Source of the DNA: Ottowia thiooxydans DSM 14619
GTDB lineage: Bacteria > Pseudomonadota > Gammaproteobacteria > Burkholderiales > Burkholderiaceae_C
NCBI RefSeq assembly: GCF_000422885.1
Contig: NZ_AUGX01000008.1
Coordinates: 124,001 to 188,000, forward strand
Direction of reading: 5' to 3'
Length of the DNA stretch: 64,000 bases
The position numbers and the translations under genes were made by a program. A model generated the notes under the pieces. That model did not search any database. It was not told the origin of the DNA and was given only the letters and a program-made list of their open reading frames with translations. This document shows positions 36,227-48,815 of this stretch, one piece after another. Every line of letters starts with the position of its first letter. Positions within the stretch are counted from its first letter, which is position 1.

Positions 36227-36476
36227 TGACATGGCTCCCCCTGAGACATTGATGCGCCTTCCCTTACGCCGGGCGCCCCAAAGGGGGTGGGAGTTCAAGA
36301 GTGTGCCGCCTCCGCGAGATATTAGACTCCCGACTGAAACGCGCAGGTTCATATATTCATGTCAGCATGAAAAATCAGCGCGTTATCAGCGTTTTTGGGT
36401 AGGGCGGGGTGAAGGTTGGCAGTGCATCCGTGGTTACGCGACTTGTTAATGCTCCTGAAATAAGAGCAGTTAGCGA

Positions 36477-37604
36477 TCATCGCGGTGGCCTCAGAATTTC
36501 CGCTCCACGCCAGACATTTGGCTGGGACAGCGCGTATTGCATGGGGTAGCAGGCCTTCGCACCGAGCATCTGGGCGGCACGCCAGACCCAGCGCGGATCG
36601 TCCAGGAAAGCACGGCCAATTGACAGCATGTCGGCATCGCCGCGCGCGACAATTTCCTCCGCTTCCCGCGGGTCAATGATCATCCCGGTCACGAAGGTGG
36701 AGATGGTCGCTCGTTGGCGAATTTCGGATGCAAACGGCACCAGGTAACTGGGTGCCGCAGAAATCCTGGCCTCATCGGTCAAGGCGCCTGCGGAGATGCA
36801 AGCGTAGTCACCTCCATGCGCACCGAAGCACCGCGCAGTTTCGACCGTATCGTCTATGGTCAGTCCCCCCTCGATCCAATCGTGGTTGTTGAGCCGAATC
36901 CCCAATACGCGATCTTGCGGCCAGGCTGCGCGCACCCGGTCTGTGATTTCCATGATCAATCGCATCCGCCCCTGAAGCGAGCCCCCGTAGCCGTCCGTCC
37001 TACGGTTCGAAATAGGCGAGAGGAAAGAATGCAGAAGATAGCCATGTGCGCTATGCAACTCAATCACTGTAATGTCCAGGCGGGCCGCGCGCTCCGCTGC
37101 CTGGCCGTAGGCTTCTATCACCCGATCGATGTCGCTGCGGTCCATCTCCCGTGGTACCGGCCATGATACTGACCAGGCCAGGGCAGAAGGCGCATACAAG
37201 GCCCAGGCACCCTCATCTACACGGAGAGCTCGTCTTCCTTCGGAGGGGTCGCAGCTTGCGCCTTTGCGGCCGGAATGTCCGAACTGTATTCCGAGCGGGA
37301 CACTTGAAAACGTTCGAATCTGTGTGATCAGTTCGCGCAGTGCTGACTCTTGCGCATCGTCGTGTAACGCAAGGCAGGTTCTGGAGCCATAACCTTGTCT
37401 TTCGACGGAAGTCGACTCGATGCAAACAAGCGCCGGGCCGGATACCGCGAGGCTCCCCAGGTGCTGAAGATGCCAAGGCTGCACCGCGCCTTGCCTGGCC
37501 GAGTACTGGGCCATCGGAGAGACCGCGATACGGTTTGTGAACTCAACGCCGCGCAATTGGAACGGCGCAAAAAGCACGGATTTCTGAATAGGATCGCGCG
37601 TCAT
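36477..37604 (-). CDS. NADH:flavin oxidoreductase (old yellow enzyme, YqjM-like)
   Basis: A 375-aa FMN enzyme of the old yellow enzyme family, closest to the YqjM/NamA class by the N-terminal FAPFQLRGVEFTNRIAVSPMAQYSA and the ELHSAHGYLLHSFLSPISNRRTDGYGGS signature. FGHSGRKG supplies part of the FMN and substrate pocket. Such enzymes reduce activated C=C bonds of enones, maleimides or nitro compounds with NAD(P)H. It is divergent from the acyltransferase-like gene across a 237-bp region with two palindromes, so it may share control with the island. Interestingly, maleimides are classic substrates of this family. Confidence 0.88.
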   Translation of the reverse strand: MTRDPIQKSVLFAPFQLRGVEFTNRIAVSPMAQYSARQGAVQPWHLQHLGSLAVSGPALVCIESTSVERQGYGSRTCLALHDDAQESALRELITQIRTFSSVPLGIQFGHSGRKGASCDPSEGRRALRVDEGAWALYAPSALAWSVSWPVPREMDRSDIDRVIEAYGQAAERAARLDITVIELHSAHGYLLHSFLSPISNRRTDGYGGSLQGRMRLIMEITDRVRAAWPQDRVLGIRLNNHDWIEGGLTIDDTVETARCFGAHGGDYACISAGALTDEARISAAPSYLVPFASEIRQRATISTFVTGMIIDPREAEEIVARGDADMLSIGRAFLDDPRWVWRAAQMLGAKACYPMQYALSQPNVWRGAEILRPPR

Positions 37605-37716
37605 TTCTGGATGTTTGCCTTCGGACGATATGCATCCCCAATGGCGTGTCGAAGCAGTTGCGTTGCACGATGCTAAGGCATCAGACCACGATTCGATTCA
37701 TCACATTTTGTGTGTA

Positions 37717-37767
37717 GTGATATCACTCGGACGGTCATTGTGTAGTGGGACATGTCCTGCCTAGAAT
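37717..37767 (+). promoter_or_regulatory. Island promoter with two palindromes
   Basis: TTGTGT (37738-37743) and TAGAAT (37762-37767) with 18-nt spacing form a plausible promoter for the plus-strand island. A perfect palindrome GGACATGTCC (37748-37757) lies in the spacer and another, GTGATATCAC (37717-37726), lies just upstream. The region is shared with the divergent old yellow enzyme gene, so one regulator could control both sides. Confidence 0.5.
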
Positions 37768-37841
37768 CATTCCAACTTCTGAAAACTCATCGAGTCGTGA
37801 CAAAAAATCCGTACGCCGATTGATTGCTGTCCGAGAAATAA

Positions 37842-38999
37842 ATGATTGAACCGTTTCCCCTCATCGACGTTTCCGGCGCACCTTTCGAGCGAGGTTTTCA
37901 ACATGGAAACTTGGCTGAAAAGCGAATCCGTGCTGGGGTTGCTCACTATATGGCGCAGTTGAAAAAACTGTCGCTCACACCAAACGAAGTGAAGCAATTG
38001 GTAGAGGAGTACTTGCCCGTCATGGAGGCGTTCGATGCGAACCACGTCAAGGAGATGCGGGGAATAGCGCAAGGTTCAGGATTGCCGTTCGAAGACATCG
38101 TGCTGCTCAATGCGCGCACCGAAATTCTCAAGTTGGGAGAGCGGCCACACTTGCGAAAACTGCTGACGGAGCAAGGCGCGGATGGCTGCACTGGACTTAT
38201 GGTCCTGCCTGAAGCCAGTGAGCGCCGCACGCTGATCCATGCCCTCAATTGGGATTGGAAACGCGATTGCGTCGATAGCTCCATCGTCTTACGTATTCGC
38301 AATGACGACGGGCCGGATATCTTGACGTTTACGGAAGCGGGTACGTTGGCTCGCGCCGGATTGAATGCGGCAGGCGTAGCGATTACAGGGAACTATCTGG
38401 AATGCGACAGAGACTATTCCCAGGTTGGTGTTCCGATTTCCCTGGTACGCCGCAAGGTGTTGGAAAACGAGCACCTCGCTCTCGCCATGCATGCCGTTTG
38501 CACCACACAAAAGTCTGCGTCGAGCAACATGATGGTGAGCCATGCTGCAGGCATAGGCATCAACTTTGAATGCGCCCCCAACGAAGCGTTTCAGATTCTG
38601 CCAGAGCGCGGATTAATGGTGCATGCGAATCACTGGATTAACGTGCCAGCGCGCATCAAGCTCCTGGAAAAGGGTATTGCCGCGATGCCAGACACTCTTT
38701 ATCGAGATACCAGGGTAAGAATGTTGCTTGAGCCGAAGGTTGGGGCGATCACGGTCGATGATGTGAAAGCAGCGCTCTTCGACGAGCTCCTTTCGCCCTG
38801 GTCGGTATGCCGCCCCCCACGCTTGAACACGGCCGGTGTCATGACTGCCACTGTGGCCATGGTGGTCATGCAGCCTGAAGCCGGAATCATGGAAGTGGCG
38901 CCGCTACCTGCGTTGAACCGTCATTTCACGACCTATCGACTCGGCGCTCAGGTCGACGTAGGTGAAAAAAAATCCCATGCTGATATTCGTGTCCAGTGA
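37842..38999 (+). CDS. Acyltransferase/amidohydrolase of the C45 Ntn-hydrolase family
   Basis: A 385-aa relative of isopenicillin-N acyltransferase (AAT, peptidase family C45). The precursor is expected to cleave itself before Cys116 in GADGCTGL, making that Cys the N-terminal nucleophile; the fungal enzyme is cut at Gly102/Cys103, a comparable place. The following FxxNxDW-like stretch reads HALNWDWKRD. No signal peptide is seen. Bacterial members hydrolyse or transfer acyl groups on amides. It starts the island operon ahead of two NodB-fold hydrolases, suggesting several successive C-N bond cleavages. The substrate is unknown. Confidence 0.8.
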   Translation: MIEPFPLIDVSGAPFERGFQHGNLAEKRIRAGVAHYMAQLKKLSLTPNEVKQLVEEYLPVMEAFDANHVKEMRGIAQGSGLPFEDIVLLNARTEILKLGERPHLRKLLTEQGADGCTGLMVLPEASERRTLIHALNWDWKRDCVDSSIVLRIRNDDGPDILTFTEAGTLARAGLNAAGVAITGNYLECDRDYSQVGVPISLVRRKVLENEHLALAMHAVCTTQKSASSNMMVSHAAGIGINFECAPNEAFQILPERGLMVHANHWINVPARIKLLEKGIAAMPDTLYRDTRVRMLLEPKVGAITVDDVKAALFDELLSPWSVCRPPRLNTAGVMTATVAMVVMQPEAGIMEVAPLPALNRHFTTYRLGAQVDVGEKKSHADIRVQ

Positions 39000-39038
39000 C
39001 GTGGATCGTCGTCATGCGGTTTGTGCACGGAGAGTAAT

Positions 39039-39920
39039 ATGACAATAAGTTACCCGACCATCTCCCGAAGTCTGCGCACCTTTTCGGACGGACGCTGGCG
39101 GCAACATCGGACCGAATGGCCGGGTGGGGCACGCGCCGCGGTTGTGATCGCTATCGATTTCGATGGTCCGTCGCACGATTTGACACAGGGGTTTCCGCCG
39201 CTCGGGTCGCACTCGACCGGACGCTATTCGGGCCGCAGGGGCGTTCCGCGCCATCTCGATATGCTGAGCCGCCTGGGGATTCCGGCAACCTTCTTTGTTC
39301 CTGGCTACGACGCCGAATGCTACCCGCAGGTCATCCGCAATATTGCCGCGGCGGGCCATGAAATAGGCGCACACGGTTATCTACATGAGCGTACGTTGTT
39401 CGAGCCCCAAGAGGAAGAGCGCCGCCTCAGGCTGACTCACGAGATCCTTGGCAACATGACCGGGTCACCACCGGTGGGCTGGCGTTCCCCCTCCGGCCAG
39501 AAGACCTACACCACGCTCAAAGTGTTGCATCAACTCGGCTATCTTTATGACGCGAGTGACAAAGACTTCGACATGCCATACATGCTCGATCTGGGGCATG
39601 GTAGATCGCTGGTGGAAGTTCCCAATAACACTTACAGCCTCGATGACCACCCTTGGTTTCACTACTCCATGACCCCGGTATCGGAGGTGCTGGAGGTCTG
39701 GAAGCGGGAGTTCGATTCCATCTATGCTGAACGAGGGTTTTTCTTCCTGAGCGTGCATCCGCGCAGCGGTTGGGGTTCAGGTTCGCCATCGCGAACGGCC
39801 GCTATAGAAAGCCTGGTACGTTACATGCAAGCTCATGAAGGCGTCACGTTCATGACTTGCGCTGAGATGTGCAACGTGGTGCGTGCGTGCCCCCAGGCTT
39901 TCGAGGAGATGCGGACATGA
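39039..39920 (+). CDS. Polysaccharide deacetylase/PuuE-like hydrolase (metal site intact)
   Basis: A 293-aa NodB-fold hydrolase. The metal and base residues are in VIAIDFDGPSHD (D40, D42) and GHEIGAHGYLHE (H112, H116), with the later GWRSPSG and the C-terminal FLSVHPR histidine. This sub-branch includes PuuE allantoinases and, as I recall, a 293-aa cyclic imide hydrolase of Pseudomonas putida, so it may open a cyclic amide or imide rather than act on sugars. No signal peptide is present, which also argues against polysaccharide. GGAGAGT precedes ATG 39039. It overlaps the next gene by ATGA. Confidence 0.8.
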   Translation: MTISYPTISRSLRTFSDGRWRQHRTEWPGGARAAVVIAIDFDGPSHDLTQGFPPLGSHSTGRYSGRRGVPRHLDMLSRLGIPATFFVPGYDAECYPQVIRNIAAAGHEIGAHGYLHERTLFEPQEEERRLRLTHEILGNMTGSPPVGWRSPSGQKTYTTLKVLHQLGYLYDASDKDFDMPYMLDLGHGRSLVEVPNNTYSLDDHPWFHYSMTPVSEVLEVWKREFDSIYAERGFFFLSVHPRSGWGSGSPSRTAAIESLVRYMQAHEGVTFMTCAEMCNVVRACPQAFEEMRT

Positions 39921-40741
39921 CTGTAGAAACCATGGCTCCATGTCCTGTTGTCGTGAGTGTTAACTTTGATGTTGAAACGCTCGATGCGCAGGTTGCAGGA
40001 GCTGCAGGGCTGTTCGGACGCTACTCCTATGGCCGTTACGGCGCGCGGGAAGGGTTGTGGCGAATACTCAATGCGCTGGAGGAATGCGGTGTTCGTGCTA
40101 CGTTCTTTGTCCCTGCTGATGAGGCTAAGCGCCATCGATCCCTGTTGATGGCTATTGTGGCCGGTGGTCATGAGATCGCAGCACAGGGCGCGCCCGTTTT
40201 CGATAAGTTGCCAGAAGGGCCCGCCGATCTCGCCTTGCTCGCGCGCACCAAGGCGGCACTGGCAGATGTGATCGGTATTGAGCCGAAGGGCTGGCGCTCT
40301 ACCAATGGATTGTTGACGGTGGAGACGATGCTGGAGCTCGCCGACCTCGGCTTCCTCTACGACTCGACTTTTCAGGACGATGACCGGCCATACGCGTTTT
40401 CCGACGGCAAAGGCCGTACCTTGGTGGAGCTTCCTGTCTGGGACTATCTAAGTGATTCCACGTTCTACGCGCCCAGGCATTCCCATCTGCGGGTGCAGAA
40501 AGTATGGACGGAGGAATTTGCCGCCATGTATGCCGCAGGTGCCTACGTTCCGTTAACGCTGCATTCGAGGGGCGACATTGGATCCTCGCGTCCGGTGCGT
40601 GTTCAGGTCATGGCCGATTTTCTCCGTCACATGGCATCGCATCCTGGCGTTCATTTCTATCGGGCGGATGAGTTGGCCGCTTTGGTAGCTCAAACCGCTG
40701 TGGCCGAGCCGATTCCAGGCCACGGCGAGCATCGCGCTTGA
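39917..40741 (+). CDS. Polysaccharide deacetylase/PuuE-like protein lacking metal histidines
   Basis: A 274-aa paralogue of the preceding protein, with the same fold markers (ATFFVPADEAKRH, GWRSTNGLL, LGFLYDSTFQDDD, LTLHSRGD). At the metal site, however, GHEIAAQGAPVFDK replaces the neighbour's GHEIGAHGYLHE: the two His are Gln90 and Val94, and the first Asp of the base motif is Asn16 (VNFDVE). It is probably a catalytically dead partner, perhaps forming a heteromer with the upstream gene product, to which it is translationally coupled (ATGA at 39917-39920). Altered metal coordination is the alternative. Confidence 0.78.
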   Translation: MTVETMAPCPVVVSVNFDVETLDAQVAGAAGLFGRYSYGRYGAREGLWRILNALEECGVRATFFVPADEAKRHRSLLMAIVAGGHEIAAQGAPVFDKLPEGPADLALLARTKAALADVIGIEPKGWRSTNGLLTVETMLELADLGFLYDSTFQDDDRPYAFSDGKGRTLVELPVWDYLSDSTFYAPRHSHLRVQKVWTEEFAAMYAAGAYVPLTLHSRGDIGSSRPVRVQVMADFLRHMASHPGVHFYRADELAALVAQTAVAEPIPGHGEHRA

Positions 40742-40757
40742 TGAGAGGGTATGAAAA

Positions 40758-41903
40758 GTGGCTCATGCAGTAGCTGTCAGCGGCGTCGGCGAGACTGAAT
40801 ACAGCCGCTCGTCGGGGCGATCTGCCCTGATGCTGCAGCTGGAGGCTTCGCTCAGTGCAATAGAGGACGCTGGTCTGACCCCCAAGGACATCGACGGCAT
40901 CATTCCATTGTCCGCGGGTACAAGTATCGCGGAGGATTTCATTGCGAATTTTGGCATTCCCGATCTGCGCTTCTCCGCAATCATTCCGATGGGAGGTGCG
41001 AGCACCGTCGCGGCCCTTCAATGTGCGGCGGCGGCGATTTCATTCGGAATATGCAAGCATGTTCTGCTACCTGCAGGTCGCAACGGTTACTCAGGGGCGC
41101 GCATGGCAGCGCGCATCACTGATCAGCCTCATCGAAGACTGATTGCCGAGTTCGAAACCCCGATAGGCGCGATTACCGCTGCGCAGCTCTATGCGCCGAT
41201 GGCACGGCGTCACATGGAGATGTTCGGCACGACAAGCCGGCAGTTCGCGGAGATCGCGGTGGCAACGCGTGCGCACGCGTTGCTGAATGAGAGGGCGATG
41301 ATGAAGAAGGAGATCACGGTCGAGGACCATCAAAGTTCTCGCCTGATCGCCGATCCCTTTCGGTTGCTCGACTGCTGCCTGGAAAGTGACGGCGGAGCGG
41401 CCATCGTAGTCAGTGCCGCAGATCGGGCGAAGGACCTGCGCAAACATCCCATCCTCGTCACGGGCATTGCCGAGGGACATCCGGACTCGCCGAGCACCAT
41501 CACCCAGCGCACCGACATCACCACGCTCGGTGTTGCCAAGGCGGCAGTGAGAGCCTTTGCAATGGCTGGCATCACTCACGATGAGATCGACGTTGCGCAG
41601 ATTTATGACTGTTTCACCTATATCGTGTTGTGCCAGTTGGAAGATCTGGGCTTCTGTAAAAAGGGAGAAGGTGGGCCGTTCGTCGAAAGCGGAGCCATCA
41701 GACTTGGCGGGAAGTTGCCAGTCAATACCCACGGAGGCTTGTTGTCTCAGGCTCACATCGGCGGAATGAATCACGTCATTGAGCTGGTTCGACAACTGCG
41801 GCGAGAGGCCGGGGCGGCACAGGTCAAGGATGCGGCGACGGGATTGGTCACCGGCTTCGGCGACCTCGGCGACGGCGCCGTTGCCATCATGCAGAGGGCT
41901 TAA
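40758..41903 (+). CDS. Thiolase-fold protein without catalytic cysteines (Ltp2-like)
   Basis: A 381-aa thiolase superfamily protein starting at GTG 40758 with an AGAGGG site. True thiolases carry a nucleophile Cys in a CxSG motif near residue 90; here the segment is IIPMGGAS (Gly79-Gly80). The second Cys of the C-terminal CGG motif is also absent (VTGFGDLGDG). The His of the SQAHIGG stretch and a Tyr in QIYDCFTY remain. This matches non-thiolytic members such as the Ltp2 retro-aldolases of steroid side-chain degradation, which need a DUF35 partner. Such a partner is encoded next. It likely cleaves or forms a C-C bond of a CoA thioester. Confidence 0.8.
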   Translation: MAHAVAVSGVGETEYSRSSGRSALMLQLEASLSAIEDAGLTPKDIDGIIPLSAGTSIAEDFIANFGIPDLRFSAIIPMGGASTVAALQCAAAAISFGICKHVLLPAGRNGYSGARMAARITDQPHRRLIAEFETPIGAITAAQLYAPMARRHMEMFGTTSRQFAEIAVATRAHALLNERAMMKKEITVEDHQSSRLIADPFRLLDCCLESDGGAAIVVSAADRAKDLRKHPILVTGIAEGHPDSPSTITQRTDITTLGVAKAAVRAFAMAGITHDEIDVAQIYDCFTYIVLCQLEDLGFCKKGEGGPFVESGAIRLGGKLPVNTHGGLLSQAHIGGMNHVIELVRQLRREAGAAQVKDAATGLVTGFGDLGDGAVAIMQRA

Positions 41904-41904
41904 C

Positions 41905-42351
41905 GTGTCTACCTTCTACGACAAACCAACCCCAAAAATCTCACCGGAATCCGAGCCGTACTGGGCAGCTCTGCGGCAGCACAAGCTCGCTCTTCAGTGT
42001 TGCAAGACGTGCGGTCGCATCCGCCACTATCCACGGCTGATCTGCGATGGGTGCTACTCCAGCCATGTCGATTGGATCGTGGCGAGTGGTCGCGGACGGC
42101 TGCATTCCTGGATGGTTGCGTATCACGCGTTCCTGCCTGCATTCCAGCTGGATCTCCCTTACATCCTGGCTATAGCGGATCTCGAGGAAGGGGCGCGGGT
42201 GCAGGCGAAGTTGCACACAGCCTCCGTCTCGAATCTCCATCTCGGTATGCCGGTGCGCGCGATCTTTGAGAACGTCACTACTGAACTGACTCTGCTCGGT
42301 CTCGAGCCGGATGTTGCCCCCGCATTTCATCAACTGGAGGACGAATGCTAA
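41905..42351 (+). CDS. DUF35 zinc-ribbon/OB-fold protein, partner of the thiolase-fold protein
   Basis: A 148-aa protein starting at GTG 41905, one base after the thiolase-fold gene's stop. The rubredoxin-like zinc ribbon has CKTCG and CDGC at about residues 32-50, followed by the DUF35 OB-fold (GRGRLHSWMVAYHAF, PYILAIADLEEGARVQAKL). Proteins of this family bind acyl-CoA and form obligate complexes with thiolase-fold aldolases or thiolases. The adjacency supports a two-protein enzyme. It overlaps the Bug gene start by 7 nt. Confidence 0.88.
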   Translation: MSTFYDKPTPKISPESEPYWAALRQHKLALQCCKTCGRIRHYPRLICDGCYSSHVDWIVASGRGRLHSWMVAYHAFLPAFQLDLPYILAIADLEEGARVQAKLHTASVSNLHLGMPVRAIFENVTTELTLLGLEPDVAPAFHQLEDEC

Positions 42352-43325
42352 CCAATCATTTCTGTCGCCTGACGGCTTTCCTGGCGAGCGCAGTAATGTC
42401 GTGTGCTCTTGCCACGTCTGTGAACGCGCAAAACACGGCGTCGATCAGGATCATCATCCCCTATGCCGCAGGAAGTTCGACCGACACCTATGCCCGGTTG
42501 ATCGGTGATTCGCTGTCGAGGAAACTCAATCGTCCGGCAATACCAGTCAATCAACCTGGTGCCGGGGGCGAGATCGGCACGCTGCAAGTTGTCCGTGCCA
42601 AACCAGACGGTAGCCACTTGCTGTTTCAGGCGCCCGCGGTGGTCATCATTCCAACGATACGCAAGAAGCCTTCGTATGACGTCCGCAAAGACCTTGTGCC
42701 AATCACGCAGATCGTCGAAGGCAATGTTGGCGTCTTTATCAATCCCGAAGTTCCCGCCAAGACGATCAAGGAGCTGATCGATTACGCCAAGGCCAACCCA
42801 GGGAAATTGAATTACGCCTCGTTCGGCGTCGGATCATCCGGGCATCTTCATGCGGAGATGTTCAAGTTAATGGCAGGGGTTGATATTCGCCATGTTCCGT
42901 ACGCCAGCGGAGCCCCTGCGGTGATGGCAGTGGCGAAGAATGAAGCGCAAATAGTGTTTGCCGATTCTCAAGGATCCGCAAGGCCTCTTATCAAAGACGG
43001 CAAATTGCGCTGGATTGCGGTCGGGTCAAAGCAGCGGTCGCCTGCCTACCCAGATATCCCAACAGTCAACGAAAGTGGCTTGCCTGGATATCTGGCCAGT
43101 CATTGGCTGGGGTTCTTCGCGCCGGCTGGCACGTCTGCCGAAACTGTTCAAAACCTCAACGTCGCGATCAACGAGTTTCTCAAGACCCCTACTATGCAGG
43201 AGAAGCTCGAACAGGAGGGGTACAGATTCGTCGGAAGCTCCGCAACCGAGTTCAAGACGTTCATCGCCGCGGAAGTCAAGAAATGGGAACACATCGTCAC
43301 AGAAGGTCGCATAGAAGCGCAATAG
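42345..43325 (+). CDS. Bug-type tripartite tricarboxylate receptor
   Basis: A 326-aa TctC/Bug periplasmic protein with a Sec signal peptide (FLASAVMSCALATSVNAQ). The ligand loops are IRIIIPYAAGSSTDTYARL and PVNQPGAGGEIGTLQVVRAKPDG. GGAGG lies 6 nt before ATG 42345, inside the end of the DUF35 gene. It is the third orphan Bug receptor in the window. No TctAB genes are close. By context it should bind the island's substrate or a product acid. Confidence 0.88.
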   Translation: MLTNHFCRLTAFLASAVMSCALATSVNAQNTASIRIIIPYAAGSSTDTYARLIGDSLSRKLNRPAIPVNQPGAGGEIGTLQVVRAKPDGSHLLFQAPAVVIIPTIRKKPSYDVRKDLVPITQIVEGNVGVFINPEVPAKTIKELIDYAKANPGKLNYASFGVGSSGHLHAEMFKLMAGVDIRHVPYASGAPAVMAVAKNEAQIVFADSQGSARPLIKDGKLRWIAVGSKQRSPAYPDIPTVNESGLPGYLASHWLGFFAPAGTSAETVQNLNVAINEFLKTPTMQEKLEQEGYRFVGSSATEFKTFIAAEVKKWEHIVTEGRIEAQ

Positions 43326-43416
43326 CTGCGCGCGAGTCCGAGCTCAATTTGCGTCGCGGCCGCTGAACAGCTGCCGCTTGCATGGATGCACACATTTCAT
43401 TACTGGGAGATCAAAT

Positions 43417-44577
43417 ATGACAGGGCCATTGAGCGGTGTGAGAGTTCTAGACCTAACGCACATTCTTGCCGGGCCGTTCGGCACCATGTTTCTGGCTCAT
43501 ATGGGGGCCGAAGTGATCAAGATCGAGTATGGCGACGGTGACCGCTTTCGCCGCTCCTGGATGCCGCCAGGTTCGACTGAAGATGGCTATGAGTTCCTGG
43601 CCGTCAATGCGAACAAAAAGCACATTACCTTGAACTTGAAAAACGAAGAAGGGCGTCAGATTTTCAAGGAGATGGTCGCCAAAAGCGATGTCATCGTCGA
43701 GAATTTTTCACTCGGTGTGATGGAGCGGATGGGGTTTTCCTACGAAGAACTCAAAGAGATCAATCCACGCATAATTTATGCGAGCTCGCGTGGCTTCGGA
43801 GACTCCGGGCCCTACGCGGAAGCTCGCGCCTATGCTTACACCATCATGGCAATCAGCGGCTGGATTAATAAGAGTTGGGAATACTCCGGCGCCTACGGAA
43901 CCAAGACATTGGGAATTGGGGATGAGGCTTCGGGCGTTTCGATGGCCATGGGAATTTGCGCAGCGCTGTACAGCCGCTCTGTTACAGGCAAGGGGCAGAA
44001 AATTGAAGTTTCCATGCAGGAAGCCTTGCTTGGTTTCATGGTTAGCACGCTTCATAGCCATTTCGAGAACATGACCACAGGTGCCAAGCCGCAGCCTTGC
44101 AAGGATGGCTATATGGCATTTCATTTCGGTGGTACGACAGATGCTATCTGGCGGCGTTTTGCTGCCGCGATGGGGCATCCCGACATGGGCTCGGATCCCC
44201 GCTTTGCCACCGAAAACGACCGGCGCGACAATTTGGCTGAGCTTCAGGAAATGGTGTCGATGTGGCTGATGGAGAAGCCCAAGGATGAGCTATGGAAGAA
44301 ATTCCGTGAGCTCGGCATTGCCAGCGCTCCCGTCCTTGCAATCGGAGAGGTGATAGAGGACGAACACATCAAGGCGCGCGGAGCGTTCACAGAGGTTGAA
44401 CATCCCGAACGCGGCAAGATGAAGCTGCTCAGTCCCTGGATCCGTTTTAGCGATACCCCCGCCAAGATCACGCATGCTGGCGGTGCCGTTGGGCAACACA
44501 ATGCGGAGGTCTATGGCGATCTACTCGGATATTCATCCGACGATGTCGCTCGGCTGACCAAAGAGGGAGTGTTCTAG
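43417..44577 (+). CDS. CaiB/BaiF-type (class III) CoA-transferase
   Basis: A 386-aa family III CoA-transferase. The N-terminal block GVRVLDLTHILAGPFGTMFLAHMGAEVIKIE and the catalytic aspartate Asp169 in GIGDEASG are both clear; Asp169 has the same number as in formyl-CoA transferase. It moves CoA between carboxylic acids through an aspartyl-CoA anhydride. GGGAGA precedes ATG 43417. It is the probable activating step of the island pathway, feeding the thiolase-fold/DUF35 pair. Confidence 0.9.
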   Translation: MTGPLSGVRVLDLTHILAGPFGTMFLAHMGAEVIKIEYGDGDRFRRSWMPPGSTEDGYEFLAVNANKKHITLNLKNEEGRQIFKEMVAKSDVIVENFSLGVMERMGFSYEELKEINPRIIYASSRGFGDSGPYAEARAYAYTIMAISGWINKSWEYSGAYGTKTLGIGDEASGVSMAMGICAALYSRSVTGKGQKIEVSMQEALLGFMVSTLHSHFENMTTGAKPQPCKDGYMAFHFGGTTDAIWRRFAAAMGHPDMGSDPRFATENDRRDNLAELQEMVSMWLMEKPKDELWKKFRELGIASAPVLAIGEVIEDEHIKARGAFTEVEHPERGKMKLLSPWIRFSDTPAKITHAGGAVGQHNAEVYGDLLGYSSDDVARLTKEGVF

Positions 44578-44982
44578 ATGAACCCGGAACAAGATGCAGC
44601 AATGCAGGAGATCCTGCAACTCGAGGATCGCAGGGCCAGGGCGATCGTTTCCAAAGATCACGCTACTCTGAGAGAACTGCTCGCTCCCGATCATGTCTAC
44701 ATTCACTGCTCGGGGCGTATCGATACTTTCGCCAGTTATATCGATAGGGTGTTGACGGGTAAGTCTAACTACCACTCGCTGGACTTCAGCAACGTGCAGA
44801 TCAAGCTTCTGGGCGACACAGCCATCGTTTGGGGAGATGTTGTCATGGACATGCGGTTACCAAGCCAGCCGCGTGTGCTCGTGCTGCGATTTTCAAATAT
44901 CTGGAGCCGCATCGACGGTCGCTGGTTGAACGTGCATTGGATTGCGGCTCCCAACACGCAGCCGCCTACGCAGCCATCCTGA
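44578..44982 (+). CDS. NTF2-like (SnoaL/DUF4440) protein
   Basis: A 134-aa cone-shaped NTF2-fold protein. The N-terminal ILQLEDRRARAIVSKDHATLRELLAPDHVYIHCSGRIDT is typical of DUF4440/SnoaL-4 members, which include isomerases, dehydratases and proteins without known activity. Its ATG at 44578 follows the CoA-transferase stop directly, with GAGGGAG upstream, so the two are coupled. The role is unknown; a hydration or isomerisation step is possible. Confidence 0.75.
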   Translation: MNPEQDAAMQEILQLEDRRARAIVSKDHATLRELLAPDHVYIHCSGRIDTFASYIDRVLTGKSNYHSLDFSNVQIKLLGDTAIVWGDVVMDMRLPSQPRVLVLRFSNIWSRIDGRWLNVHWIAAPNTQPPTQPS

Positions 44983-45008
44983 GATGAAAATCCAATAAGG
45001 AGTTTCGA

Positions 45009-45836
45009 ATGAAGCAGTCCCCTGCAGTCGATGCACATGCTCACATTTTTTGCGGACCAGAGCATCCGATGTCGCCCCACAGGCTCTATACGCCGCATTC
45101 CACCGAAATGGGTACGGCAGATCAGTTTTGTGCCGTTCTGGATGCGCATGGATTTAGCCACGCTTTGCTGGTGGGTGCGGGCCCGTACCGCACGGATAAC
45201 AGTGGCATGCTGGCTGCTATCGCCGCATTTCCCGGCAGATTCAAAGGCATTGCTTTGGTCGAACCTGACATTGACGAACATGAAATGAAGAGCTTCGTCG
45301 AGCATGGCATCGTTGGCATCCGGGTCAATCTTTCCGGGTTTGGTCTGAGTCAGATCACTGGGGCTGCGGCCGATCGCCTGCTCGCGATGTTGAAGGAGAT
45401 GGGCCTGTTTCTGCAGATCATCTGTCAGAAGGATGATCTCGTCACGGCAATGCCCATCCTGCGGAGATCCGGGGTGAAGGTCATGGTTGATCACTTCGGT
45501 CGCCCGGACATAAGCCAGGGCATCGCGCAGCAAGGCTTCCAAGCTCTGCTGGAACTTGGACGATCCGGTAATGCGATCGTCAAACTCTCAGGCCCCTTCC
45601 GCTCGTCCGTCGCTGGATTTCCTTATAAGGATGTGGACCAGTTTGTGAGCTCCGCGATGGATGCCTTCACCCTTGATCGCTGCGTTTGGGGATCTGACTG
45701 GCCATTCGTCGATATGCACCAGCGTATCGACTACGGGCCAACCGCCAGTTGTATAGCAAGGTGGCTGCCTGATGTGGAGGATAGGCAGAAAGTCCTCTGG
45801 GACACGCCAGCGCGTCTCTTTGGCTTCACTGCCTAG
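45009..45836 (+). CDS. Amidohydrolase-family TIM-barrel hydrolase (pyrone-dicarboxylate lactonase-like)
   Basis: A 275-aa amidohydrolase 2 protein. The first metal-site motif is VDAHAHIFCG (residues 8-17), DHFGRPD supplies another ligand, and WGSDWPF near the C-terminus holds the general-base Asp. The layout is that of 2-pyrone-4,6-dicarboxylate lactonase (LigI) and related lactonases or decarboxylases. AAGGAG lies 7 nt before ATG 45009. It closes the main island operon and could open a lactone ring. No specific substrate can be named. Confidence 0.8.
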   Translation: MKQSPAVDAHAHIFCGPEHPMSPHRLYTPHSTEMGTADQFCAVLDAHGFSHALLVGAGPYRTDNSGMLAAIAAFPGRFKGIALVEPDIDEHEMKSFVEHGIVGIRVNLSGFGLSQITGAAADRLLAMLKEMGLFLQIICQKDDLVTAMPILRRSGVKVMVDHFGRPDISQGIAQQGFQALLELGRSGNAIVKLSGPFRSSVAGFPYKDVDQFVSSAMDAFTLDRCVWGSDWPFVDMHQRIDYGPTASCIARWLPDVEDRQKVLWDTPARLFGFTA

Positions 45837-45967
45837 CCCACAGGAAGATTCAGCGCAAGTTTGAGGAAACCGAGCGGGCAGCAGTTGGCTTCATCGACAC
45901 TGGGCTGGGTCGCTCGTACTCCACTCGACTGCTCAGGCAGGAGATTGGCCATTTACCGGAATACAAC

Positions 45968-46585
45968 ATGAAGCTTTACTACAACGCCGCCTCGCCGTTT
46001 TCCCGCAAGGTGAGGGTTTTTGCTCGTGAGGCGGGCTTGCACCCACGCGTCGAAGAAGTCCTCACGGCCGTTTCGCGGTCGAAGGTCAACACCGAGTACG
46101 CGTCTATCAATCCCCTAGTGAAAATACCTACGTTGATTACCGAGGATGGCATGTCAATCTTCGATTCGGCCGTCATCTGCGAATACCTTGACTGCCTCCA
46201 CACTGGGATAAAGCTTTTTCCGCCGGAAGGTACGAAGCGGTGGCGCCACCTAAGATTGCAAGCGACGTGTGATGAGATTTTGGATTCGGGAAATTTCTTC
46301 CGATTTGAGACCGTGGATAGGCCAGAGCATCGCAAGGATTGGGCGTTCGCCTTGTCGGAAAAAATGCGCGGTGGTTTGGACCTGCTGGAAGCCGAAGTGG
46401 GAGTTCTCGGCGGCGGTCCGAGTATTGGCAGCATCTCCACCGCCTGTACGCTGGCTTGGCTAGACTTCAGATTCGGCCATCAAGATTGGCGTGTGGGGCG
46501 TCCGAAACTCGCACAGTGGTACCCAGAATTCGCGGCACGCCCCTCAATGCAGAACACGCCACCGTCGTCGCCACCCAAACTTTGA
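45968..46585 (+). CDS. Glutathione S-transferase family protein
   Basis: A 205-aa GST. The N-terminal thioredoxin-like domain starts MKLYYNAASPFSRKVRVFARE, with the glutathione-binding NPLVKIPTLITEDG and FDSAVICEYLD. A helical C-terminal domain follows. Ser rather than Tyr or Cys is at the usual catalytic place. It lies 131 nt after the amidohydrolase and is convergent with the LysR gene. It may conjugate a reactive intermediate or isomerise a product. Confidence 0.85.
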   Translation: MKLYYNAASPFSRKVRVFAREAGLHPRVEEVLTAVSRSKVNTEYASINPLVKIPTLITEDGMSIFDSAVICEYLDCLHTGIKLFPPEGTKRWRHLRLQATCDEILDSGNFFRFETVDRPEHRKDWAFALSEKMRGGLDLLEAEVGVLGGGPSIGSISTACTLAWLDFRFGHQDWRVGRPKLAQWYPEFAARPSMQNTPPSSPPKL

Positions 46586-46629
46586 TCGCATCCAGACGCG
46601 CATCGAGGCAAGGCCGTTCTACGGGGTAT

Positions 46630-47544
46630 TCAGCCCTTGCCAGCTTTTTCCTTTTTGGTCAGGGTCTCTGACAGGAAGTCGATGAAGGCCCGCACCTTGA
46701 GCGATCTAAAACGATGCGGTTGATAGACGACGCTGATGCTTCGACCAGGAAGCTTGTGCTCATCCAGCACTGTCTCCAACCTGCCACTGGCCAACTCCTC
46801 AATGACGAGGTAATTGGCGATTTGTATCAGGCCAAGGCCGGCGCAAGCGCCGCTCACAAGAAGATCGACATTGTCAGCAAAGATCCGGCTGTCGAACGAA
46901 GAATGGAACATTTTAAGTTCTGTGGCATTGGCGCCCTTTAGTATCCATTCAGTCGCGGTACCGCTTTTTTCCTCGATGTAGGAGATGCGCTTGTGGCCCG
47001 CGAGATCGCTCAGCTGTTGCGGTTTGCCATATTTCGCAAAGTAGCCCGGCGAACCGCAAATCACGGCCGGCGCCATGAGCAACTGACGAGCGACAACTCC
47101 CGGTTCCGTCACCTTGCCGACGCGGATTTCCACGTCCGCGTTGCCATGAGCCTTTTCAGCTTTGCTGCTTTCGATCTCGACAAGAATTTCTGGATAGGCC
47201 TCCATGAACTTGCCGAGCGCCGGAATGAAGATATTCTTGCCAAAGCCAAGAGGCATTCGGACGCGAAGTCTGCCGCGTGGAGTCTGGCGCGATTTGGAGA
47301 GATTCAGCTCTCCTTCTTCAATGTGCTGCAGTGCTTGCTTGCAGCTTTCGAAAAACTGCTGTCCTTCGTTCGTAAGCTGAACGGATCTAGTTGTGCGGGC
47401 AAAGAGTTGCACACCAAAGTGAGCTTCAAGCCGCTTGATCGCGTTGCTGACGCCAGCGGGAGAAATGCCCATGCTTCGAGCAACTTTCGCGAAGTGCTGT
47501 TCTTCAGCGACCCTGGTGAAAATCCGCAACGTTTGCAAGTCCAC
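46630..47544 (-). CDS. LysR-family transcriptional regulator
   Basis: A 304-aa LysR protein with the helix-turn-helix at residues 1-60 (LRIFTRVAEEQHFAKVARSMGISPAGVSNAIKRLEAHFG) and an effector domain. It is close to the CrgA/DsdC-like group that often regulates neighbouring catabolic or efflux genes. It is placed at the end of the island on the minus strand, convergent with the GST gene, and is the best candidate for island control, although it is not divergent from its supposed targets. Confidence 0.88.
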   Translation of the reverse strand: MDLQTLRIFTRVAEEQHFAKVARSMGISPAGVSNAIKRLEAHFGVQLFARTTRSVQLTNEGQQFFESCKQALQHIEEGELNLSKSRQTPRGRLRVRMPLGFGKNIFIPALGKFMEAYPEILVEIESSKAEKAHGNADVEIRVGKVTEPGVVARQLLMAPAVICGSPGYFAKYGKPQQLSDLAGHKRISYIEEKSGTATEWILKGANATELKMFHSSFDSRIFADNVDLLVSGACAGLGLIQIANYLVIEELASGRLETVLDEHKLPGRSISVVYQPHRFRSLKVRAFIDFLSETLTKKEKAGKG

Positions 47545-47647
47545 GGTCAGATTGTCCCATAGGGCCCTAGTGAATCAAGTTGCGATAGGGCTGCTTTCTG
47601 CGCTTTCATCATTGGCCTACTGGACTCAGGATGGCCTGGGCAGAAGA

Positions 47648-48493
47648 TTATTTCCGCGCTGCCACACAATCCCCCGCCTTACACCCCAGCCAATCCAGCA
47701 ACTGCCGCAACTTCCCCTCGGTGCTGGTGTCAAAACCATTAATGCCAATTGACTTGAGCACCTCTTGCCCATCTGCCGAGTTAGGAAGATCGGTCAGGGC
47801 TTTTTGCATGGCAACAATCGCAGCTTTGTCGAAGGATTTTTCCGCAATTAGTGGGAAAAAGGGCTGTGTCACACTTTTGTGCAAAACTGGTCCGCCTTCC
47901 TTGACCCATTTCTTAGCGGCTCCAGAATAGGACGCAAGCGCACCGACTTGACCGAACCCGTTAGAGATGTAGAAGCTCACAGCCTCTTGTTCTCGAACGT
48001 AGGTCACGGCCTCTTTGTTGATATCTATACCGTGGTTGCGCAGTTCGGCGGCGCAAAACTTCGTCATGTAGGAGATCTTCTCCGGCATCACGATTTTCTT
48101 ACCCTTGATGTCCGCCAGTGACTTGATGGGGGAGTTCTTCGGGATGGTAATGAAGCACTGGCCGTCTGGTTTGGCCGTTGCGACGAATTGATAGCCATAG
48201 TCGCGCAATCCGCGGGCCGGGAAATCGCTGGGCCGCGCCAAGGCCAGATCGAGACGGCCGCTTTGCATGCCCTCCTCGAGCTGGGAAAATTCGCGAACGA
48301 ACACAACATTGACGTTAGTTTTGAGCGCGCCACTCAAGACCTTGGCCAAACCGCCGTATTTGAGCAGCACCCGTGCATGGTCGGTGCCTCCGGAAGTGCC
48401 TTCGCTTACTCCCAAAATCAAATCGCGCGCCTGCGCCTGGTGCGCGCAAACAGCCAACATGCCAGTGATCAACAATGATCGAAACTTCATCAT
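47648..48493 (-). CDS. PhnD-like phosphate/phosphonate ABC binding protein
   Basis: A 281-aa periplasmic protein with a signal peptide (LLITGMLAVCAHQAQA). It has the PhnD/SsuA-type fold markers: DLALARPSDFPARGLRDYGYQFVATAK, SLADIKGKKIVMPEKISYMTKFCAAELRNHGI, and a late FPLIAEKSFDKAAI. Members bind phosphonates, phosphite, sulfur compounds or serve as sensor inputs. No permease or ATPase gene is adjacent, so it is an orphan here. It lies upstream of the LysR gene on the same strand with about 100 bp between them. Confidence 0.78.
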   Translation of the reverse strand: MMKFRSLLITGMLAVCAHQAQARDLILGVSEGTSGGTDHARVLLKYGGLAKVLSGALKTNVNVVFVREFSQLEEGMQSGRLDLALARPSDFPARGLRDYGYQFVATAKPDGQCFITIPKNSPIKSLADIKGKKIVMPEKISYMTKFCAAELRNHGIDINKEAVTYVREQEAVSFYISNGFGQVGALASYSGAAKKWVKEGGPVLHKSVTQPFFPLIAEKSFDKAAIVAMQKALTDLPNSADGQEVLKSIGINGFDTSTEGKLRQLLDWLGCKAGDCVAARK

Positions 48494-48815
48494 TTCCCCC
48501 TCCAGGGATGCTCGGAGCGATCATATCGGAAGTGCACATTTGTGTGACATTTTTCACATATGTGGTGGCATTCATACAGAGGGGTTCTGAGAGCGCTAAA
48601 CTGGCGGGCTGAGAAGGTGTGAACGAATCCCTCATACCCGCCTTGACCGTCCAAAACCACCCGCTCTGCGTTGCAAATGCTCGCCATAGCCCGAGCTATG
48701 CTTGCGCTTTGCGCCTTGATCGGGCGGTTTTTGACGGCCCTTTCGGACACGCCGGATTCATTCACACCTTCTGAGTCCGCCGGCGCTGTGCCGGTATCTT
48801 TCACTGGCACCCACC
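48494..48815. other. Gene-free region holding a palindromic element
   Basis: This 322-base gap lies between divergent genes and is mostly occupied by the palindromic repeat at 48602-48783. The rest should hold promoters for both sides. TGTGTGACATTTTTCACATATG around 48540 is AT-rich and contains the inverted pair TGTGA/TCACA, a possible CRP-like site. Confidence 0.45.
48602..48783. repeat. Long palindromic repeat element
   Basis: The left arm GAGAAGGTGTGAACGAATCC (48611-48630) is matched by the right arm GGATTCATTCACACCTTCT (48754-48772) with one mismatch in 19. Outside these, GGCGG at left faces CCGCC at right. Inside, ACCGTCCAAAACCACCCG (48646-48663) faces CGGGCGGTTTTTGACGGC (48721-48738), and the centre around GCCATAGCCCGAGCTATG is again paired. 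The whole piece folds into one long interrupted hairpin. It contains no gene and shares its arm with the repeat at 32965-33004. Confidence 0.7.

Follow-up and report, generated by a model that had tools for sequence, protein, structure and literature searches.

The stretch of 64,000 nucleotides analyzed here (Ottowia thiooxydans DSM 14619, contig NZ_AUGX01000008.1, positions 124,001 to 188,000; hereafter the window) carries an island of twelve genes, running from a gene of the old yellow enzyme (OYE) family to a LysR gene, between xerC and the gene of a CobW-type GTPase (Table 1). An earlier note on this DNA had read from the gene set a candidate undescribed pathway for a cyclic imide or an N-acyl compound. 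Every gene that it named was found to be open and in the expected family by the open reading frame (ORF) list, Pfam and NCBIfam, and the gene list is thus real; the extent that it gave (36477..46585) left the LysR gene just outside, and the island is better drawn at about 36.23-47.6 kb. The order is OYE on the minus strand; C45, two PuuE-like genes called here E1 and E2, thiolase-like, DUF35, Bug, CaiB, DUF4440, Amidohydro_2 and glutathione S-transferase (GST) on the plus strand; and LysR on the minus strand.

Table 1. Coordinates of the island and of its twelve genes in the window.
Feature	Position	Strand	Evidence
Inserted island, approximate extent, from xerC to the phosphonate-binding-family gene	36227..47600		twelve proteins without same-place match in 7/7 relatives opened
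OYE family flavin oxidoreductase, divergent from the operon	36477..37604	-	PF00724 (Oxidored_FMN) 191.7 bits
C45 (AAT-type) Ntn-hydrolase, predicted amide hydrolase, Cys in ADGCTG	37842..38999	+	NF040521 266.5 bits, cutoff 85
E1, PuuE/HpPgdA-like hydrolase, metal-site residues intact; ATG preceded by GGAGAG	39039..39920	+	PF01522 (Polysacc_deac_1), residue alignment
E2, degenerate counterpart of E1 with Asn at the Asp12 position and Gln and Val at those of the two His	39917..40741	+	Polysacc_deac_1, residue alignment
Thiolase-fold protein, YDCF, without nucleophilic Cys; predicted retro-aldolase on an acyl-CoA	40758..41903	+	PF22691 (Thiolase_C_1) 173.8 bits
DUF35 protein (zf-ChsH2 and OB fold, OB_ChsH2_C), predicted partner of the thiolase-like protein, GTG start	41905..42351	+	PF12172, PF01796
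Bug/TctC-type periplasmic solute receptor	42345..43325	+	PF03401 221.8 bits
CaiB/class III CoA-transferase (CoA_transf_3)	43417..44577	+	PF02515 334.1 bits
DUF4440 NTF2-like protein	44578..44982	+	PF14534 74 bits
Amidohydro_2 protein, 4-sulfomuconolactone-hydrolase-like	45009..45836	+	PF04909 137.9 bits; NF042924 120.8 bits, under cutoff 500
GST family protein	45968..46585	+	PF13409, PF13417, PF13410
LysR-type regulator, last island gene, convergent	46630..47544	-	PF00126, PF03466

The nine genes from C45 to Amidohydro_2 are co-directional, with gaps of 39, -4, 16, 1, -7, 91, 0 and 26 bp (starts read from the sequence); the start of E2 overlaps the stop of E1 by 4 bases (ATGA), and 16 bp separate E2 from the thiolase-like gene. 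GST starts 131 bp after Amidohydro_2, OYE is divergent across 237 bp and LysR is convergent. Terminator-like sites were not in excess in the region (7, against a shuffle mean of 11.2). Because the gaps are short and such sites are not in excess, the nine genes are likely to be carried on one transcript. Scans of the window for Rfam families and tRNAs returned no matches. The C45 protein scores above the cutoff of the NCBIfam C45_proenzyme model and has the processing-site Cys: the Cys of ADGCTG aligns with that of 2x1d, and a Cys occupies this site in all 11 relatives read (the stretch of locus L034 begins after the site). For the OYE protein, the best NCBIfam profile was the OYE part of PRK08255, with 329.5 bits against a cutoff of 1078 that applies to the fused protein.

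The genes on both flanks, xerC and the CobW gene, were located in ten genomes including that of O. thiooxydans. They are about 240 bp apart in two of the three same-genus genomes (G146, G230) and about 3.2 kb apart in the third (G015), where the phosphonate-binding-family gene that follows the island in the window (47648-48493) has a homologue between them (74% over 766 bp). Since this next gene has a homologue beside xerC in a congener, the right boundary was placed at about 47.6 kb. None of the twelve island proteins had a tblastn match at E 1e-4 in the seven relatives opened (G146, G230, G015, G114, G128, G020, G087); in two other relatives (G088, G091), which stand outside this test, xerC and the CobW gene are not neighbours. 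The twelve-gene block is a lineage-specific insertion relative to congeners, which supports the earlier reading of a catabolic-type island set among housekeeping genes. The GC content of 36227-48815 is 56.1%, against 59.7% on the left and 58.9% on the right in the window. As this difference is mild, it is from presence and absence that we infer acquisition by horizontal transfer.

A phage-borne origin was considered and rejected: xerC adjoins dapF and matches in all ten genomes searched, no dedicated search for an integrase or a transposase having been made. Two further observations concern the flanks. The intergenic region before the CobW gene (48600-48790) contains a stretch dense in short palindromes, around 48671-48700; a 30-base pattern taken from it has a single occurrence in the window, and no fetched locus contained a shortened form of it besides the window's own copy. 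Also, in the same-genus genome G230 the xerC match (L074, G230:C1:64244-65263) is split in two within a single frame; compared with the window, about 66 additional bases separate the two parts, which would be an in-frame insertion or an assembly matter.

The part of the island that recurs elsewhere is the C45 gene with the two adjacent PuuE-like genes (hereafter the core), which is found in other families and in rhizobia. Relatives of C45 were detected in 5 of 250 family-sample genomes, the own genome included (E 1e-60), and around C45 in the other four there was no island gene except one Bug. Relatives of E2 occurred in 10 of 399 order genomes, again with the own genome (E 1e-45), and a search of genome contigs with a single protein query added two E1-E2 loci; E1 adjoins E2 in the nine other order genomes and in both of these contig loci. 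Similarly, the E1 profile matched 7 of 250 order genomes (E 1e-60), all seven with an adjacent E2. At E 1e-60 the E2 profile matched no genome but the own one in samples of 369 genomes of the class and 398 of the phylum, and the module is thus rare and scattered. In the plasmid collection, E1 had matches in 65 records, of which the four with at least 44% identity among 20 listed were opened, and all four have E2 beside E1; C45 had matches in 48 records and six were opened via C45, so that these plasmid contexts are examples and not counts. On the plasmid of Rhizobium etli IE4803 the order is C45, a small unknown gene, an omega-aminotransferase (620.5 bits with the AptA model, above the cutoff of 500), E1, E2 and an SSADH-like dehydrogenase (474.6 bits, below the cutoff of 646.35), with a GntR gene and the genes of an oligopeptide/dipeptide ABC transporter as neighbours. 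R. etli IE4771 and 8C-3 (L096, L097) have C45, aminotransferase, E1, E2 and dehydrogenase in the order of IE4803, and in Microvirga VF16 E1-E2 lies about 8.5 kb from C45.

Trees and residue counts were based on 14 loci (the window, nine order genomes, two genome-contig loci, R. etli IE4803 and Microvirga VF16), seven of them from the genus g153, and the two further R. etli records were left out. Gene positions were taken from tblastn where they differed from ORF calls in GC-rich loci. E1 and E2 are adjacent in 16 of 16 loci (the 14 of the tree and the two R. etli records), and C45 lies in the E1-E2 locus in 12 of the 14 tree loci, or 14 of 16 with these records. In the maximum-likelihood tree of 14 E1 and 14 E2 sequences, the two proteins fall into separate clades (100/100 support) whose main groups branch in corresponding ways. 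The distances of E1 and E2 are correlated (0.867 for nine representatives, with 1 of 10000 permutations as high); shared host descent also yields such a correlation, which therefore speaks for joint inheritance and not for contact. Thus, E1 and E2 are inherited together, and mostly with C45. In the genus g153 (L024-L030), the core is surrounded by many Bug genes, as many as eight matches within about 20 kb being seen in L027 and L030, and Amidohydro_2 (L025) and Gfo/Idh (L024, L030) genes stand close to it.

The earlier note had described a pair of PuuE-like hydrolases. Both are indeed Polysacc_deac_1 proteins, but they are not alike, since E2 is without both metal-binding His and the first Asp. 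In HpPgdA (HP0310), which shares its fold with PuuE, E1 and E2, the metal ligands are Asp14, His86 and His90, while the water is held by Asp12 and His247 (PMC3084791; this paper and those below are cited from excerpts). E1 of the window has the equivalents of all five, the residue set of an HpPgdA/imidase-type metal site, and E1 reads D, D, H, H, H in 13 of the 14 loci including this one, L034 having H for Asp12. None of the 14 E2 proteins has the full set: N replaces Asp12 in 14/14, both metal-binding His are lost in 12/14, and Asp14 and His247 are each kept in 12/14. These residues suggest that E1 is active and E2 its degenerate partner. In the structure model of E1 (mean pLDDT 67.6, moderate confidence), the group 3rxz, 3cl6, 1z7a, 3s6o and 3qbu ranks above sugar deacetylases, and the E2 model also matches this group first; both models were built from 3-sequence alignments and add only that the two proteins may fit the PuuE-like group, with moderate confidence for E1 and low for E2. 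A role as sugar or peptidoglycan deacetylase is less likely, given profile scores far under cutoffs and this fold ranking. Identity with PuuE allantoinase was rejected, as E1 and E2 score 71.7 and 60.3 bits with TIGR03212 against a cutoff of 424.6 and the residues are also against it: PuuE is without the metal site, and the retention of all metal-site residues in E1 argues against metal-free hydrolysis of allantoin of the PuuE type.

For the thiolase-like protein, the best PDB matches were 4u4e and the Ltp2 aldolase 6ok1. GGAST (GGAS in the 6 nearer relatives aligned) stands at what we take to be the position of the nucleophilic Cys of thiolases. A true thiolase (C-acyltransferase) was rejected because this Cys of the N-terminal half is missing. 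The protein had been called cysteine-less, which holds for the nucleophile and fails for the Cys of its YDCF motif, which is kept; YDCF, which the window protein shares with 5 of 7 aligned relatives, agrees with the YDC(Y/F) motif of the Sal/SLP group. The residue at the position of Tyr344 of TcLtp2 is His in the window protein. In CtSal, Tyr302 and Cys304 of YDCY are catalytic and the enzyme works with a DUF35 domain, and TbSLP, with YDCF, was proposed to be an aldolase (PMC12329534). On these grounds the thiolase-fold protein and DUF35 are predicted to form a retro-aldolase of Sal/SLP type. They resemble the steroid retro-aldolases CtSal and TcLtp2 by the thiolase fold without nucleophilic Cys, the YD(C/H) motif and the DUF35 partner (PMC12329534). 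However, DUF35 of the window is a separate small protein without MaoC domain, and CtSal and TcLtp2 act in steroid routes, whereas no steroid genes were seen among the twelve island genes.

Of 250 order genomes, 3 contain the thiolase-like protein at E 1e-90, the own genome included, and its nearest relatives are in Rhodococcus sp. ZPP (67%) and G383 (63%). Their neighbours are DUF35, CaiB genes, an AcetylCoA_hyd_C protein and a phosphotransferase-family gene, and the thiolase/DUF35 pair thus belongs to acyl-coenzyme A (acyl-CoA) catabolism there. A Rhodococcus plasmid and a genome of the window's order (L046, L052) have in common the set CaiB, thiolase-like, DUF35, AcetylCoA_hyd_C and APH-type phosphotransferase. 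At E 1e-80, neither 10 other genomes nor the plasmid collection contained a match to CaiB of the window, and the DUF4440 protein had none at E 1e-12 in the plasmids.

We propose that this island was acquired horizontally, is catabolic and probably allows the bacterium to use a small cyclic nitrogen compound as food. The Bug receptor would serve uptake, and ring opening would be preceded by the reduction of a C=C bond by OYE. E1 and E2 would then form a two-subunit, ATP-independent hydrolase of PuuE/HpPgdA type that opens a small cyclic amide or imide, with the metal-dependent active site in E1 and E2 as a non-canonical partner shaping or stabilizing it. The C45 Ntn-hydrolase would cleave the remaining linear amide, CaiB would probably, in this genome, load the resulting acid on CoA, and the retro-aldolase would cut the CoA ester into an acyl-CoA and a carbonyl compound. 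In favour of this scheme are the pairing of E1 and E2, their matching trees, the active-site pattern, the fold ranking of E1 and, in three R. etli strains, a core that sits with an omega-aminotransferase and an SSADH-like gene much as in the caprolactam route. The late hxn steps discussed below, the YDCF motif and the acyl-CoA clusters with CaiB genes that hold the nearest thiolase relatives also speak for it. Successive C-N cleavage, already suggested in the earlier note, is the most natural reading of the conserved core, and a cyclic imide is one of several possible substrate classes. As a whole, the scheme, in which all twelve genes would act in one pathway, seems to us plausible, if not quite an even chance.

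Literature searches (open-licence papers) for the gene set or for an E1/E2-like pair revealed no described pathway, in line with the earlier note, which knew of none with this set. The closest described chemistry is the HxnT-HxnM-HxnN route of the hxn nicotinate pathway of Aspergillus nidulans, whose late steps are reduction by an OYE, ring opening by an HpPgdA-related hydrolase of cyclic imides and hydrolysis of an amide (PMC9304392). These steps parallel those proposed for the island. The hxn route differs by a single HxnM, compared here by description, in place of the E1/E2 pair, by an oxidation by HxnW between HxnT and HxnM, by the lack of CoA steps, and by HxnN, which is not described as a C45 enzyme in the excerpt (PMC9304392). 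None of the twelve genes encodes a pyridine hydroxylase (HxnS, HxnX, HxnV), no search for these having been made elsewhere in the genome. In the excerpts on HpPgdA and PuuE neither is described with a degenerate partner. The caprolactam route of Pseudomonas jessenii comprises a two-subunit lactamase, an omega-aminotransferase and a dehydrogenase (PMC6061476), and has in common with the R. etli relatives of the core a ring opening by two subunits followed by an omega-aminotransferase and an aldehyde dehydrogenase. However, caprolactamase is ATP-dependent and of the oxoprolinase family, and the island of the window has no aminotransferase.

Several observations weigh against the proposed pathway, and some of them favour other explanations. 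Two E1-E2 stretches (L022, L023) have no linked C45, the L023 genome holding a homologue (59%) on another contig and the L022 genome matches of 35% and 32% only. Some E2 proteins keep metal-site residues (both His in L033, one in L034), long branches were flagged in the E1/E2 tree, and the E2 model is of low confidence (mean pLDDT 58.0). The thiolase relative L047 (52%) reads YDGF and the distant one in L029 (32%) FDAF. Moreover, PuuE allantoinase is not metal-dependent (PMC10967932), and being active without metal it shows how E2 may be an enzyme itself, E1 and E2 then acting as two successive hydrolases and not as one heteromer. The Asn of E2 at Asp12 of HpPgdA would agree with this, as PuuE reads LNYE there, in a weakly aligned stretch; the adjacency of E1 and E2 in every locus and their matching trees fit a complex, while being compatible with two steps, and we find an active E2 unlikely. 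As to the whole set, core genes and CoA genes are not co-conserved. The 13 other E1-E2 tree loci contain no relative of CaiB, the NTF2-like protein, the amidohydrolase or GST (tblastn E 1e-6), the Amidohydro_2 proteins close to the core in L025 and L031 being of other kinds, an OYE homologue (39%) is near it in L031 only, and thiolase/DUF35 homologues (32%, 35%) in L029 only. The idea of one co-conserved set, whose failure is part of what the earlier note had itself named as grounds for rejection, could therefore not be upheld, CaiB having also gone unmatched in the other genomes and plasmids, and the interpretation given in that note is partly supported overall. These distributions would suit an insertion site that took up two unrelated cargoes acting on different substrates, namely the core and a module of CoA genes (retro-aldolase, DUF35, CaiB, NTF2-like protein, amidohydrolase), all the more as the thiolase relatives occur in separate acyl-CoA clusters and the two groups meet elsewhere only as the distant pair in L029. 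Against this stand the nine head-to-tail genes with their short gaps, 16 bp between E2 and the thiolase-like gene, and the lack of terminator-like excess; such a double origin, compatible with any reading of the core, is in our opinion rather unlikely.

Other explanations concern the substrate of the core. E1/E2 may open a diketopiperazine or a cyclic peptide and C45 cleave the product, or an N-acyl or beta-amino acid peptide, M81 or M28 peptidases possibly joining C45 in other genomes. ABC transporter genes, which suit peptide-like substrates too, occur in the vicinity of C45 in each of the six plasmid records opened via C45; those of Neorhizobium carry the name dipeptide type and those of R. 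etli oligopeptide/dipeptide. By clustering, relatives of the R. etli transporter proteins occur in L034, L006, L007 and L008. M81 (MlrC-type) genes are found in three E1-E2 loci (L022 by Pfam, L023 and L031 by clustering) and M28 genes in L022 and, by clustering, L031. A further point in favour of peptides is that R. etli, Chelatococcus and Neorhizobium have class III aminotransferase genes close to C45. However, the twelve island genes include no peptidase family but C45 and no ABC transporter, and the relatives with known small substrates use allantoin or an imide (PMC3084791, PMC9304392), so that peptide-like compounds seem to us quite unlikely. The M81 and M28 genes close to E1-E2 (L022:3699-6967 by Pfam; L031:2600-5852 by clustering), in two loci that differ in origin, may form a second cleavage route. 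A cyclic-ureide route, in which E1/E2 would hydrolyze a hydantoin or a dihydropyrimidine and C45 remove the carbamoyl group to leave a beta- or omega-amino acid, can draw on the allantoinase activity of PuuE and on the omega-aminotransferase and SSADH-like genes of R. etli. The TIGR03212 scores given above and the metal site of E1 that PuuE does not have speak against it, we know of no carbamoylase in the C45 family, and we consider the route very unlikely.

Beyond the pathway proposed for the island, C45-E1-E2 may represent a scattered, unrecognized module for ring opening and deamidation, borne on islands and plasmids: a two-component, ATP-independent cyclic amide or imide hydrolase, in which one NodB subunit is catalytic and the other, degenerate one is its obligate partner, feeding a different downstream route in each lineage (an omega-aminotransferase in rhizobia, CoA-transferase and retro-aldolase here). 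We regard this generalization as possible but doubtful. If it is true, the fold family, from which single pseudoenzymes are known but no obligate partners were found described in the excerpts, would gain a conserved pair of active and degenerate proteins, and a two-subunit hydrolase would be available for half-amide or lactam chemistry. Also, adjacent E1 and E2 genes with C45, the former now labelled 'polysaccharide deacetylase', would become an annotation signature for the catabolism of lactams, imides or cyclic peptides.

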